Assembly: GCF_004519315.1 (NCBI RefSeq)
Contig: NZ_SOZE01000008.1
Span: forward strand, 62,001 to 126,000
From: Mucilaginibacter psychrotolerans
GTDB lineage: Bacteria; Bacteroidota; Bacteroidia; Sphingobacteriales; Sphingobacteriaceae
Length of the DNA stretch: 64,000 nucleotides
Reading direction: 5' to 3'
Of the stretch, positions 7,608 through 12,532 are shown piece by piece; position 1 is the stretch's first letter; each line of letters begins with the position of its first letter. The position numbers were made by a program, and so were the translations under genes. Below the pieces are notes generated by a model. The model did no database searches. It was not told the DNA's origin and saw only the letters and a list, made by a program, of their open reading frames with translations.

Positions 7608-8816
7608 TCATGAATGATTATTCATCGCCACACTGTTTTCGGAAATACGAAACATCGCATCAGTAGCCTTTTCAACCGCTGCCCGGACCGGGTCAAGATG
7701 CAGCCTTGCATAAATCAAAGTTGCCTCCGGTGAACGGTGTCCTAACGATTTTCCGATGATTTGCAAACTTGCCCCGGTAATCGCCTGATAGCTTCCTAAT
7801 GTCCGGCGCAGATCATGCATCCGAAAGTTTTCTATTTCAGCTGTTTCCAATAATTTTTTCCAGCTATGTGCGGGGCAGGCAATATGACCCGTTTTGCTTT
7901 TCTTGCTTGGAAATACCCATTTTGGTTTCTTAGCAGATTGTCCGCATTCCACTAAAGCCTTTTGCCAGCGTTCGTTTAAGATTTCCATGGCTTGCGGCGT
8001 TAAAGGGATAATTATTGGATCGCCGTTCTTGGTGTTAGGGATATGCCATTCCTGCTGGTGCCAGCGAATATCCGCCCATCGCATTGCCGTTACTTTCGAT
8101 TTGCGAGATCCTGTAAGGAGTAACAACCAGGTATAATGCCGTATAGTAGTTTCTTCTTCATTCAGTGCTGCGAAAAACCTCGGCAGTTCCTCCGGCTGCA
8201 TGAACCGGTCGCGCGAAACTTCCTTGAATTCCTGAATACCCTCGGCAGGATTTTTCCCTTGCCATCCCCATTCAATGGCCTTGTTAAAGATAGCCCGCAA
8301 CCGGGCAACTGCATTATTGGCTGCATAGGTTCCGTTATGTTGACCGATACGGACATGCGTTCGTTGCACCTCATTCTTTGATATGGCAGAAATCTTTTTG
8401 TGAAGGAAATGGCTGAAATGGTTTTGGATAACATCCTCGTCTTGCTTCCAGGTCTCTTTGTGCTGTTTGCTGTAACGTGACATGTATTCATCAAATAGTT
8501 TCTGGAAGGTCATTTCATCGCGGATGTTGCGCTTTTCCTGTTGCGGGTTTTTGCCGGAAGCAATCTGGCCTTTTAAGACCGAGGCAGCCTTGCGGGCATT
8601 TTCAACGCTTATATCCGGGAAACTTCCCAGGAAAAGGCGCTCGGGTCGCCCGTCAATTTTCTTATACAGGTAAAACGATTTCGTGCCACTGGCCCGGACA
8701 TCAAGAATCAGGCCTTTTTCACGGGTATCCCGATAATAGATACGGCTGCCGGAATCAGGTAATTTTAAGGCTATTAAAGCAGGCTTGGTGAAATTGAAAG
8801 TCTTGGCAGAGGTCAT
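7608..8816 (-). CDS. Tyrosine-type site-specific integrase, P4/DUF4102 family
   Basis: A 402-residue integrase that would insert and excise the element by strand exchange at att sites. Residues 1-100 form the N-terminal DUF4102 arm-binding domain (GLILDVRASGTKSFYL), 100-195 the SAM-like core-binding domain, and 205-390 the catalytic domain. Visible catalytic residues are Arg238 in TGSRKS, His334 and Arg337 in HDLRRT, His360 in LGHRS and the nucleophile Tyr369 in LIYARL. The common TGxRxxE Glu is replaced by Lys241, a tolerated position. The start at 8816 faces a 440-bp non-coding region with repeated putative binding sites. Confidence 0.95.
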   Translation of the reverse strand: MTSAKTFNFTKPALIALKLPDSGSRIYYRDTREKGLILDVRASGTKSFYLYKKIDGRPERLFLGSFPDISVENARKAASVLKGQIASGKNPQQEKRNIRDEMTFQKLFDEYMSRYSKQHKETWKQDEDVIQNHFSHFLHKKISAISKNEVQRTHVRIGQHNGTYAANNAVARLRAIFNKAIEWGWQGKNPAEGIQEFKEVSRDRFMQPEELPRFFAALNEEETTIRHYTWLLLLTGSRKSKVTAMRWADIRWHQQEWHIPNTKNGDPIIIPLTPQAMEILNERWQKALVECGQSAKKPKWVFPSKKSKTGHIACPAHSWKKLLETAEIENFRMHDLRRTLGSYQAITGASLQIIGKSLGHRSPEATLIYARLHLDPVRAAVEKATDAMFRISENSVAMNNHS

Positions 8817-9100: not shown

Positions 9101-9255
9101 GCCAAATCAATTATAGTCTACCAAACATGCCTGAAAGAATCAAGTCAATTTGTTAGTTATAGTGTGTTGTAGAGTGTGTGCAATATGCTAGACAGGCAAG
9201 ATTACTTTTACCTTGTTATCCTGAATTTTTTTCAAAAAGTCGTCTATAGGACTTC

Positions 9256-10878
9256 TCATCGTACCCAGTTTTTATAAGCTTCTTTTTCAATACTTTCGAT
9301 GAGTCGTCTAACATATTCGAGATCTGCCAACTTGGTCCGTCTGTTAAGTAATGTATTAAGTGTTGTTGAGATTCTGGTATTGTCACTACGATCTCGGCTT
9401 GTAAACGTGTTATCAAATCGTCTGCGTAACTGTTCAAACTCTCTTGCAAGTTCGATTTCTTCAAGTCTAGCCCATTCTGGTAGATTTTCTTCTTCTCGGC
9501 AAATTCGTTCAATCTCTCCGTCACTTTGTTGTCGAGAGTCGATTTCAAGTTGTTCAAATTCTTTTGGTAAATCATCCTTTCGGCGTTGTATGCCTGAAGT
9601 TCCTGCGATTGCTCGGCCAATACTTTCTGCAATTCTATCTGTAAGTCCTGATAATTCAATAAGGCGCTCGCTAAATTCGAGTTCTGTGTCTCGTACGTGC
9701 TCGCTAATTGCTCGTTCTTCTCGTTCAATCGCAAATTGAGTTTCTTTTGTAGCATTATTAGCTGCGTGTTCAAGTCGAGTAAATTCTTCTCTTTGCTCTG
9801 TAAGAGTTCGGACATCGTTTTCAAGTTCAGCAACCTTATCTCGATATCGCGTTTCCAAGTCTGTTTTGTCTTCTGAAAATCCGTTTCGTTTTTCGTCAAG
9901 CTCCAATTGGCTGATTGCAATTCGTTCCAGTTCGTCTTTAGAATGTCTTTCAACGTCTTCTCGTATTGCTGCCTCAAGATCAATCCGTTGTTTTCGATAA
10001 GTTTCAACAGTTCGGCGCTCGTCTCGCAAGCGACTTGTAACTCTCGACTCAATTTCGCGGTATTGTTCTGATTGATAGCATTTATTAATAGATCGTATGA
10101 GGTTCGCAATTTGGTTTCGTCTGCACGTGACAGATTCTGTGTGAAGCCGTTTCTCGAACTCATCAATTGGTTCACTTCTTCCAGAATTGCCGCCGGAAGG
10201 GCGTAAGTAGTTTGTGAATTGTTGTTCATTTGTATAGACCCATTTTGAACGCCCTGATTGAAAGAGCGATTGAAAAATAGCTTCCCGGGAATCCTCTGGG
10301 AGTGTGATTTGCAGCGTATTTATTCGAAGTCTCCGTAAGTTGGCTTTATCGGCTTCTGATATTGAAAATTTCTTTACGATTTGTACGAGTAAGATGGGTT
10401 GTTGATCTTGAAAGAGAACAACGTCCGGTTGAAACAACATGATACAGTTATCCAGGAGCAACTCTGAACCTATCGCGACAAGGCCTGATGCATCCTCGAA
10501 AAAAAGTAAATTCCTTTTAACGGTTGTGGCATAAACGAAATCCGAAGATTTCAACGTCATTGGCGGGTCGTCAAAATTATTAGGGTTGAATTTGTAAATC
10601 GCCGGCACCTTAATCCTTTTTTCTAAAACTAAAGAATCAATTGCAATATGCTTACGGTATTGATGATCCGAAAAAGTACATTTATTGTTCTGCTTAACGT
10701 ACTTAGCGTCATGCCGAAAAAAGTCAGTTACATGCGTCTTATGCTTGACTGCTTGCATATCTCTACCGCATCCAAGACAAGTATAGCCACGACCGCTAAC
10801 TGCTTCCGAAATATGAACTTCGGCAGCATCGATAACCCTCATGGCATAAAAGTGATTTTCTCCCAGGTTTTCTGACAT
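9256..10878 (-). CDS. CoiA-like Zn-finger/nuclease-fold protein with long coiled coil
   Basis: A 540-residue protein I do not recognise as a named family. Residues 30-80 look like the CoiA-type zinc element: C34-x2-C37, F54-R-H56, C67, and YRKH at 74-77. Residues 149-195 resemble the PD-(D/E)xK core (PDVVLFQDQQPI, then LVQIVKKF), but Gln166 stands where Glu is expected, so activity is doubtful. From about residue 225 to the end it is almost entirely charged coiled coil rich in Arg and Glu. It is the last gene of a four-gene operon. The codon pattern supports this frame: the overlapping +1 frame, also open for 337 codons, would need all Asn/Lys/Glu/Asp codons to avoid a preceding T. The function is unknown; DNA-end sensing or defence is a guess from its architecture. 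Confidence 0.75.
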   Translation of the reverse strand: MSENLGENHFYAMRVIDAAEVHISEAVSGRGYTCLGCGRDMQAVKHKTHVTDFFRHDAKYVKQNNKCTFSDHQYRKHIAIDSLVLEKRIKVPAIYKFNPNNFDDPPMTLKSSDFVYATTVKRNLLFFEDASGLVAIGSELLLDNCIMLFQPDVVLFQDQQPILLVQIVKKFSISEADKANLRRLRINTLQITLPEDSREAIFQSLFQSGRSKWVYTNEQQFTNYLRPSGGNSGRSEPIDEFEKRLHTESVTCRRNQIANLIRSINKCYQSEQYREIESRVTSRLRDERRTVETYRKQRIDLEAAIREDVERHSKDELERIAISQLELDEKRNGFSEDKTDLETRYRDKVAELENDVRTLTEQREEFTRLEHAANNATKETQFAIEREERAISEHVRDTELEFSERLIELSGLTDRIAESIGRAIAGTSGIQRRKDDLPKEFEQLEIDSRQQSDGEIERICREEENLPEWARLEEIELAREFEQLRRRFDNTFTSRDRSDNTRISTTLNTLLNRRTKLADLEYVRRLIESIEKEAYKNWVR

Positions 10879-10902
10879 CGATAGTTAGGCTGTAAGGATA
10901 AA

Positions 10903-11124
10903 TCAAATTTCACGTTCACGCGATTGTTCACGTCCTTTCTGCGAAACTTCACGTATGCGTTCCAGTTCGTATTGCCTTGCCCCGGCAGCCATACCCTTAA
11001 AGCGTTCGCCCTCCGCTTTGGCAGATAGCATTTGCTGTGCAACTTCTGGCATTTCCCGTTTCAGTTTATACATCTGATTAAAGCCTTTTATATATTCCGG
11101 CGATGGGTCTTGTTCTTCTTCCAT
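10903..11124 (-). CDS. Small hypothetical protein
   Basis: A 73-residue, highly charged, helical protein beginning MEEEQDPSPEYIKGFNQMYK. The EYIKGFN segment resembles short Bacteroidota hypothetical proteins found near phage and element genes. It has no signal peptide or membrane segment. It starts six bases after the stop of the membrane-anchored gene and ends 24 bases before the 540-residue gene, so it is very likely part of that operon. Its function is unknown; an adaptor or regulator of the large coiled-coil protein would fit. Confidence 0.65.
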   Translation of the reverse strand: MEEEQDPSPEYIKGFNQMYKLKREMPEVAQQMLSAKAEGERFKGMAAGARQYELERIREVSQKGREQSREREI

Positions 11125-11130
11125 ATAAAC

Positions 11131-11535
11131 TTAATCTTTTTTGTAGCGTAGCAAAAATATATTTTCGTCAATCGGTTCCAGTTCCAGCTCTTTTCTAAGT
11201 TCGGCCCTTAAGTCGTTTACTAGATCATTAATATCGATTGTTCCGCCTTTTTGAATATCATACGCCAGTTTCTTTGCAAGCTCGATTTGTCGCTTGGTTC
11301 CGAATAACTGTAATTCAACTAATGGAAGTTCAAGTTTTCGCACTGTTTCCTCTGAATATTCCCGGTGGACGATATCGTAGGCAAGGATTTTATACGTATC
11401 AATCAGATGCTTGCTAATAATCTCTCGCCGCTTTAGTGTCTTATCCCGTTTGCTGCTGAAATAATGTGCAGCTATCCAACCTATAACAGCAATCGCTACC
11501 GTAATAATGGTTTTTATAATATCAGAAATATCCAT
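11131..11535 (-). CDS. Small membrane-anchored hypothetical protein
   Basis: A 134-residue protein with one N-terminal hydrophobic helix (about residues 7-27, including TVAIAVIGWIAAHYF) followed by a basic stretch SSKRDKTLKRRE, which by the positive-inside rule places the rest in the cytoplasm. The remainder is a helical charged domain ending in a short basic tail. I recognise no family. It begins two bases after the HTH gene stop. In the operon it could tether the complex to the membrane, but that is inference. Confidence 0.7.
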   Translation of the reverse strand: MDISDIIKTIITVAIAVIGWIAAHYFSSKRDKTLKRREIISKHLIDTYKILAYDIVHREYSEETVRKLELPLVELQLFGTKRQIELAKKLAYDIQKGGTIDINDLVNDLRAELRKELELEPIDENIFLLRYKKD

Positions 11536-11537
11536 GC

Positions 11538-11813
11538 TTAAAATGTCTCATAAGTGAAATCTTCAATAAAATCGCGGATGCTGTCAGCATCGTATAGTAT
11601 GATTTTTTTCTCGGGCTGGCTGTATCGGATTTTTCCTTCGTCACGAAATTTCTGCAACGTAGTTTTGCTGGTAATGCGTAGCATGCGCATGGCTTCCTCG
11701 CCGGACACCCATTTGTCGCCTTGTGTTTGTTTAGGTTTTTTGCTGTCTATATAAGCTTCAAGTTTATCAATCATCGCGTAAAACGCGCGATCTTCAAAGC
11801 ATATCACTTCCAT
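11538..11813 (-). CDS. Helix-turn-helix protein (DUF3853/MerR-excisionase type)
   Basis: A 91-residue protein. The N-terminal 30 residues form a helix (AFYAMIDKLEAYIDSK), then a recognisable HTH: WVSGEEAMRMLRITSKTTLQ, FRDEGKIRYSQPEKK and a YDADSIRDFIEDF end. Proteins of this form are frequent in Bacteroidota conjugative elements and islands as DNA-binding regulators. It is the first gene of the four-gene minus-strand operon and the likely transcriptional regulator. The upstream region (11814-12049) has no other gene and must hold the operon promoter. Confidence 0.8.
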   Translation of the reverse strand: MEVICFEDRAFYAMIDKLEAYIDSKKPKQTQGDKWVSGEEAMRMLRITSKTTLQKFRDEGKIRYSQPEKKIILYDADSIRDFIEDFTYETF

Positions 11814-12049
11814 CGGTTCAGGATTTTTTATGAAGGTAAAAACTTTAAACGATATTCCAAAGTGCTTACCGCCAAGCCATCAGGAACAAAAAGAAAAAAG
11901 ATTATAAAAAAAAGCGGCGTTTTCTTACCTTTGCGCTCCACGCACCGAAAGGCGCACCGTTAACAAAACCGTTAACAAGTTTGACAACTGAAAAAAGCCA
12001 CTTACGGCACAAATCGTAAAAAGCTGATTATCAGTATAAATAACCACCC

Positions 12050-12123
12050 GGCGGGGTAGCTCAGATGGTTAGAGCGTAGGATTCATAACCCTAAGGTCGG
12101 CAGTTCGATCCTGCTCCCCGCTA
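12050..12123 (+). tRNA. tRNA-Met (anticodon CAT)
   Basis: A 74-nt cloverleaf: acceptor GGCGGGG pairs with CCCCGCT (one G-T), the D-arm is GCTC/GAGC, the anticodon loop is TTCATAA with anticodon CAT, and the T-arm is GGCAG-TTCGATC-CTGCT. The discriminator is A and CCA is not fully encoded. The anticodon stem has an A-C mismatch next to the loop. CAT could also be read as tRNA-Ile2 if the C is lysidinylated. The 3' end is duplicated at 12458. Confidence 0.93.
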
Positions 12124-12134
12124 CATTAGCAGAA

Positions 12135-12157
12135 GGCCCCTTGAAAAAGGGGCTTTT
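12135..12157 (+). terminator. Terminator after tRNA-Met
   Basis: GCCCC-TTGAAAAA-GGGGC followed by TTTT gives a five-bp GC stem and U tract just after the tRNA. A second copy follows the duplicated tRNA tail near 12496-12517. Confidence 0.75.
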
Positions 12158-12160
12158 CTC

Positions 12161-12439
12161 GTTATTACCATTTACGCGCTATACTCGCCAACTTTCAACC
12201 AAATTTACATCGGTAGTACATCCGATATGGCTAACCGATTCCTTTCTCATAACGAGTTAGCCACTAAAGGGCATACGATAAAATATCGCCCATGGGTGAT
12301 TGCTCATATCGAAGAGTATCCAACAAAAGCCGAAGCGGTGAAACGCGAAAAACAACTTAAAACTGCTAATGGAAGGCAGTTTATACGGGGCATCGTTAAA
12401 TCAAAATTTGATAGCTCAGATGTTTTGCGCGCAGGTTAA
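12161..12439 (+). pseudogene. GIY-YIG nuclease gene, copy 1, lacking a normal start
   Basis: The open frame reads ITIYALYSPTFNQIYIGSTS, which is the complete GIY-YIG N-terminal motif, then continues through ATG 12227 into WVIAHIEEYPTKAEAVKRE and GRQFIRGIVKSKF, the usual family end. The frame is open back into the tRNA but has no ATG, GTG or TTG before the internal ATG at 12227, which would cut off the catalytic motif. So the gene is either started at a rare codon (ATT at 12164) or inactive. Intact members start Met-x-Thr-Val-Tyr at this point; the second copy still has ATGs here. Confidence 0.7.
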
Positions 12440-12457
12440 TATCCGCTGGTAAGCGGA

Positions 12458-12527
12458 CGGCAGTTCGATCCTGCTCCCCGCTACATTGGCAGAAGACCCC
12501 TTGAAAAAGGGGCTTTTCTTGTTATTA
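12458..12527 (+). repeat. Duplicated tRNA-Met 3' end plus terminator
   Basis: These 70 bp repeat 12098-12167 with only a few mismatches at an offset of exactly 360 bp. They include the T-arm, acceptor 3' side and terminator hairpin but no D-arm or anticodon, so this is not a functional tRNA. The unit that was copied is tRNA tail, terminator and nuclease gene start. Confidence 0.9.
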
Positions 12528-12532
12528 TGATT

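Follow-up and report, generated by a model that had tools for sequence, protein, structure and literature searches.

The stretch analysed here, referred to as the window, comprises 64,000 nucleotides from Mucilaginibacter psychrotolerans (Bacteroidota, Sphingobacteriaceae; assembly GCF_004519315.1, contig NZ_SOZE01000008.1, positions 62,001 to 126,000). It contains a gene, designated A, for a nuclease-like protein with a long coiled coil, and the coiled-coil half of this gene in all likelihood encodes a second protein, designated B, in another frame of the same strand (see table). A preliminary description of the sequence had placed A last in a row of four genes, preceded by genes for a helix-turn-helix (HTH) protein, a single-pass membrane protein and a small charged protein, close to an integrase and a tRNA. 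The positions, the common minus strand and the intergenic spacings of 2, 6 and 24 bases were all as claimed, the integrase and tRNA were found nearby, and the HTH protein gave a significant match to HTH_17. What had been overlooked was a +1 open reading frame of 337 residues (9216-10229, minus strand) that spans the entire coiled-coil half of A.

Table. Features of the A/B locus and its surroundings (window coordinates unless prefixed C101)
Feature	Position	Strand	Remarks
Gene A, 540 amino acids	9256..10878	-	CoiA-like zinc element, restriction-endonuclease-fold domain, then ~300-residue coiled coil (nuclease-like, by sequence)
Gene B, 337 amino acids	9216..10229	-	+1 frame relative to A; ATG start; unannotated
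Dual-coding stretch, 974 bases	9256..10229	-	two frames, one strand
Zinc element of A, residues 34-67	10678..10779	-	putative ligands C34, C37, H56, C67
PD-(D/E)xK core of A, residues 151-172	10363..10428	-	P151-D152 kept; E166 replaced by Q; T170-H171-K172 replaced by KFS
Start codon of B, ATG	10227..10229	-	formed by A codons AAT-GAA, just after the W-x-Y motif of A
Charged protein, 73 amino acids	10903..11124	-	local neighbour, not conserved with A/B
Single-pass membrane protein, 134 amino acids	11131..11535	-	local neighbour, not conserved with A/B
HTH_17 protein, 91 amino acids (excisionase/regulator type)	11538..11813	-	local neighbour, not conserved with A/B
Tyrosine integrase of carrier island	7608..8816	-	
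tRNA-Met	12050-12124		
Right copy of 51-base direct repeat (5' half of tRNA-Met)	12038..12088	+	flanks ~30.5 kb island
Left copy of 51-base direct repeat	C101:43581-43631		18.4 kb left of window

In the window, the B frame runs without a stop for 367 codons beginning at position 10319, and its reading continues about 40 bases past the stop codon of A. When the synonymous codons of A were permuted, 9.1 ± 1.7 stops were expected in this frame, whereas the actual sequence has none (0 of 5000 permutations); the +2 frame, which served as a control, contains 41 stops compared with 38 expected. The predicted structure of B consists of short helices at both ends and one helix of about 250 residues between them, which would make the protein a long helical rod.

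A search of 395 genomes of the same class revealed three other carriers, which are 27-35% identical and retain the +1 open reading frame in every case (3/3), and plasmid records contributed five more loci, with both frames present in all. An alignment of ten members was too diverse to serve as a scan profile. Scanning of GTDB genomes gave 44 loci, of which 39 have A with its coiled coil; B is present in the +1 frame in 39/39 of these, with B profile E-values from 1e-15 to 1e-102. Of the remaining five, one (L058) is a fragment at a contig end and four are short CoiA relatives that lack the coiled coil. The hosts of A/B represent at least ten families of Bacteroidota, including Flavobacteriaceae, Cyclobacteriaceae, Hymenobacteraceae, Cytophagaceae/Spirosomataceae, Flectobacillaceae, Paludibacteraceae, Prolixibacteraceae, Sphingobacteriaceae, Lewinellaceae and Saprospiraceae. 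Median pairwise identity is 43% for the N-terminal part of A and 26% for B. Phage records and IMG/VR yielded no relatives, and weak matches in the phylum (L009-L011) were rejected as unrelated or as plain CoiA relatives without B. More distant CoiA proteins occur without B on proteobacterial plasmids, among them a coiled-coil protein from Glaciecola (L020), and the distant CoiA relatives L061-L064 and L017-L020 have no second gene. This distribution makes it probable that B arose by overprinting of A inside the Bacteroidota.

The plasmid records annotate one frame only, usually A; the record of Hymenobacter sp. DG25B is the reverse, with B annotated (L016:6542-7588) and A omitted. In Spirosoma sp. 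KNUC1025 (region of L013:7430) and Lutibacter citreus (region of L038:7150), the start of A runs into the C-terminal part of B, and these two loci look as if a single insertion or deletion had swapped both frames at once. In addition, A is interrupted by an in-frame stop in L036, where B is intact, and L049 and L060 are short in both frames; these anomalies may represent decay or sequencing error.

We counted stops in both frames across 40 distinct loci. With A held fixed, no stops were observed in the B frame compared with 282 expected, and the +2 control frame contained 1605 compared with 1515 expected. With B held fixed, no stops were observed in the A frame compared with 578 expected. Among nine closely related pairs, third-position differences outnumber first-position ones about 3.3-fold where only A is coded and the ratio drops to about 0.8 within the overlap, the switch falling at the start codon of B (chi-square P 2e-59, the sites not being fully independent). 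These computations show that purifying selection acts on both frames.

The start of B lies directly after the conserved W-x-Y-N of A. Of 44 distinct loci, 41 have ATG here, two have GTG and one has ATC, with an ATG six codons on. An adenine is present at -3 in 40/44 loci, partly forced by the Asn codon of A; adenine at this position is a reported positive start determinant in Bacteroidota, which are without Shine-Dalgarno sites (PMC6847099). Predicted mRNA structure is weakest around the B start (-2.6 versus -5.3 kcal/mol elsewhere, paired z 12.6). It is also weaker there than in synonymous recodings of A (t 4.5), with no such effect upstream of the overlap. By these computed signals B bears the marks of its own start site. 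An alternative is that ribosomes shift from the nuclease domain of A into the B frame, giving a fusion and no separate B. B does begin exactly at the end of the nuclease domain, and its frame is open for 14-37 codons upstream of the ATG in about half of the loci. However, in 8/40 loci a B-frame stop lies 2-5 codons 5' of the conserved ATG, which disfavours such a fusion, and the ATG, the adenine at -3 and the low mRNA structure fit initiation, so that we regard frameshifting as very improbable.

A further alternative is that the second frame is an artefact of composition, a Glu/Arg-rich coiled coil being free of +1 stops by chance. Codons of the coiled coil do yield fewer +1 than +2 stops, but the idea is refuted by the counts obtained on synonymous permutation, and it conflicts with the flip in codon positions at the B start, with the conservation of the start codon and of the B profile, and with the coiled-coil CoiA relative from Glaciecola, which is without such a frame. 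Judged from the sequences, there is very little doubt that the double coding is real.

The preliminary description had assigned to A a CoiA-like zinc element, a damaged PD-(D/E)xK-like core with Gln in place of Glu, and some 300 residues of coiled coil, each of which was borne out. C34, C37, H56 and C67 are invariant in 35/35 family members and are putative zinc ligands. The catalytic residues of PD-(D/E)xK nucleases are kept at the level of the family (D152 in 35/35, E166 in 34/35 and K172 in 31/35 members) and lost from the window copy, which has Q166 where 34/35 have Glu and K170-F171-S172 where 31-32 of the 35 have T-H-K. The window's own A is thus probably catalytically dead. Residues 241-540 are predicted to form long helices. 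CoiA_N (PF25164) matches 9/35 family members (best E 4.9e-8), window A not being among them; against Pfam the latter gave only DUF7828, below cut-off, and the remaining matches of A were coiled-coil noise. When A, B and their neighbours were scanned against Pfam, PHROGs, PADLOC and NCBIfam, HTH_17 was the sole significant match, and A and B gave only weak matches (E>0.01) to the defence models of PADLOC-DB 2.0.0.

In structural comparison, residues 67-222 of the A model align to DrdV, 9y1l, 3ijm, Bax1, Hjc and SPARDA chains with Z 4.3-6.0. These scores are middling, yet many independent restriction endonuclease (REase) entries agree, which points to an REase-like fold. A Foldseek search of viral models with A matched a phage competence protein and PD-(D/E)XK proteins; the whole A model gave no match in the PDB by Foldseek at E<=0.001, and PDB profile searches with A and B returned coiled coils by composition only. 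Overall, A appears nuclease-like, with a CoiA-like zinc element, a PD-(D/E)xK domain and a coiled coil.

The locus lies at the right end of an island of about 30.5 kb in tRNA-Met (C101:43581-74088, window -18419 to 12088), between the integrase and the attachment (att) site, in keeping with the earlier suggestion that the genes are cargo of an integrated element. The window holds only the right part of this island, which is bounded by the 51-base repeats of the 5' part of the tRNA; 3'-tRNA repeats to the right of the tRNA were considered as its boundary and rejected. The island contains two tyrosine integrases, a SIR2-like gene (C101:58620-60650), RadC, a toprim primase and two apparent relaxase/mobilisation sets, the left integrase and the mobilisation genes having been assigned by eye. 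Beyond the island, at 12098-12528, two copies of the 3' end of tRNA-Met and its downstream hairpin occur 360 bp apart, separated by a truncated GIY-YIG nuclease fragment, and this looks like the remnant of another insertion. The four genes of the window do not form a conserved system as had been proposed: the HTH, membrane and 73-residue proteins have no homologues in the flanks of other A/B loci (phmmer, E<=1). The unit conserved in distant Bacteroidota is A with the overlapping B.

In other hosts A/B frequently comes directly behind a defence gene or operon, in the same orientation. The genes upstream include type IIG restriction enzymes (L034, L045 and L048, and L040 by clustering), type I restriction (L041, L044), LmuB of Lamassu (L035), HerA (L036), a CBASS cyclase (L014), an AbiL-type protein (L015) and an AbiU/MzaE-like protein (L049), and in L021 a GajA-like (Gabija-like) gene follows A/B. 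Together, 64 upstream neighbours matched 316 PADLOC models, compared with 13, mostly generic, matched by 40 window proteins, a rough control because related models are counted several times. The defence setting suggested in the preliminary description is supported by neighbours in other genomes. Between the type IIG enzymes and A/B, two Flavobacterium loci encode an uncharacterised family of 453/467 residues (L034:3835-5193, L040:4467-5867). In a locus from Cyclobacteriaceae a protein with JAB plus E1/ThiF-like parts, identified by eye and of a kind known from ubiquitin-like defence operons, lies directly upstream of A (L002:2589-3950).

The same neighbourhoods bear on a role of A/B in DNA transfer or uptake, that is, in processing of the CoiA type as in competence or conjugation, instead of defence. 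Such a role would suit the grouping of the A N-terminal part with CoiA proteins and the location of several copies on plasmids or in mobilisable islands, but the recurrent neighbours are type I/IIG restriction, Lamassu, HerA, CBASS cyclase, AbiL and Gabija-like genes and not uptake genes, making this role quite unlikely.

The coiled-coil character of B goes beyond what the protein sequence of A requires: its heptad periodicity exceeds that of synonymous recodings of A in 39/40 loci, and its Leu content does so in 40/40. The composition of the overlap raises the possibility that A and B bind each other. Arg codons are AGA or CGA in 88% of cases in the overlap compared with 51% in the N-terminal part of A, and Arg of A is therefore read as Asp/Glu in B. 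Glu of A lies opposite Lys, Asn, Arg or Ser of B, and hydrophobic positions of the two proteins coincide, the correlation between A and B at the same codon being -0.47 for charge and +0.41 for hydrophobicity. Because charges mirror and hydrophobic positions coincide at the same codon, an in-register heteromeric A:B coiled coil is plausible.

From these results we propose a mobile cassette that would encode two proteins in two frames of one DNA strand. In A, a CoiA-like zinc element and a PD-(D/E)xK nuclease domain would precede the long coiled coil, and B, a separate protein, would start in the +1 frame from an ATG inside A, at the close of the nuclease domain. The two rods may pair, B holding or gating the nuclease, and the module might cut foreign DNA within, or alongside, the defence systems behind which it sits. 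Since the nuclease site in the window is probably dead, any activity of the window copy would come from binding. That A and B form a nuclease-rod pair acting in defence through their coiled coils seems to us evenly poised between acceptance and doubt. The fuller version, a phylum-wide defence module in which the B frame specifies a charge-mirrored, heptad-matched hetero-coiled-coil partner of A and the gene encodes its own binding partner, we put forward tentatively, as possible but short of probable.

Several observations weigh against this proposal. Support for both products comes from sequence computation and start-site signals. The charge mirror is a consequence of codon choice, does not exceed the synonymous null and is no proof of pairing. 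The link to defence comes from neighbourhood, with one window as control, and some A/B loci have no recognised defence gene alongside. Finally, the window A is without the catalytic Glu and T-H-K. The last point also counts against the idea that A is a toxic nuclease and B its inhibitor, or antidote, the two being made inseparable in transfer by their overlap in a toxin-antitoxin-like manner: the window A looks catalytically dead while the B frame stays open. Mobility of the cassette, which occurs on plasmids and islands, would fit an antidote, as would the finding that across 295 genomes B was present only alongside A, barring four weak coiled-coil matches; we consider this idea unlikely, though worth keeping in mind beside the defence pair.

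Same-strand overlaps of this length in bacteria were previously thought not to exist, were judged artefacts and are removed by annotation programs; in a survey of 968 overlaps >60 bp none of the 715 co-directional cases was real (PMC2478687). A/B is a same-strand overlap of about 970 bases with a clear signature of selection and both products conserved in at least ten families. Whether and why cellular genomes keep large dual-coding genes thus becomes directly testable with one silent mutation. The locus further suggests that defence islands contain an unrecognised nuclease module, the partner protein B of which is missing from databases.

In comparison with known systems, A resembles the CoiA-like competence nucleases (PF25164; PD-(D/E)XK clan, PMC1913061) in having a Cys/His putative zinc element followed by an REase-fold domain with PD...E. 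It differs in that a second gene is encoded in +1 within its C-terminal coiled coil of about 300 residues, and in that the window copy is without the catalytic Glu. A validated anti-phage system of E. coli contains a CoiA domain (PMC9519451), the point of comparison with A, and the part of that source considered here describes no +1 dual-coding partner. CoCoNuTs (PMC11090510), like A/B, join coiled coils to nucleases in a defence setting; they constitute a branch of McrBC-type IV systems, whereas no GTPase domain was found in A, and the portion of that account drawn on here names no dual-coded CoCoNuT gene. As regards the overlap itself, the long bacterial overlaps met in the open-licence papers searched are mostly antisense. 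One such overprinted gene is pop, 603 bp antisense to ompA (PMC7103648). Two proteins are likewise obtained from one stretch of DNA in both cases, but A and B share the same strand over about 970 bases and, unlike the antisense pop, their overlap is conserved down to a median B identity of about 26%.
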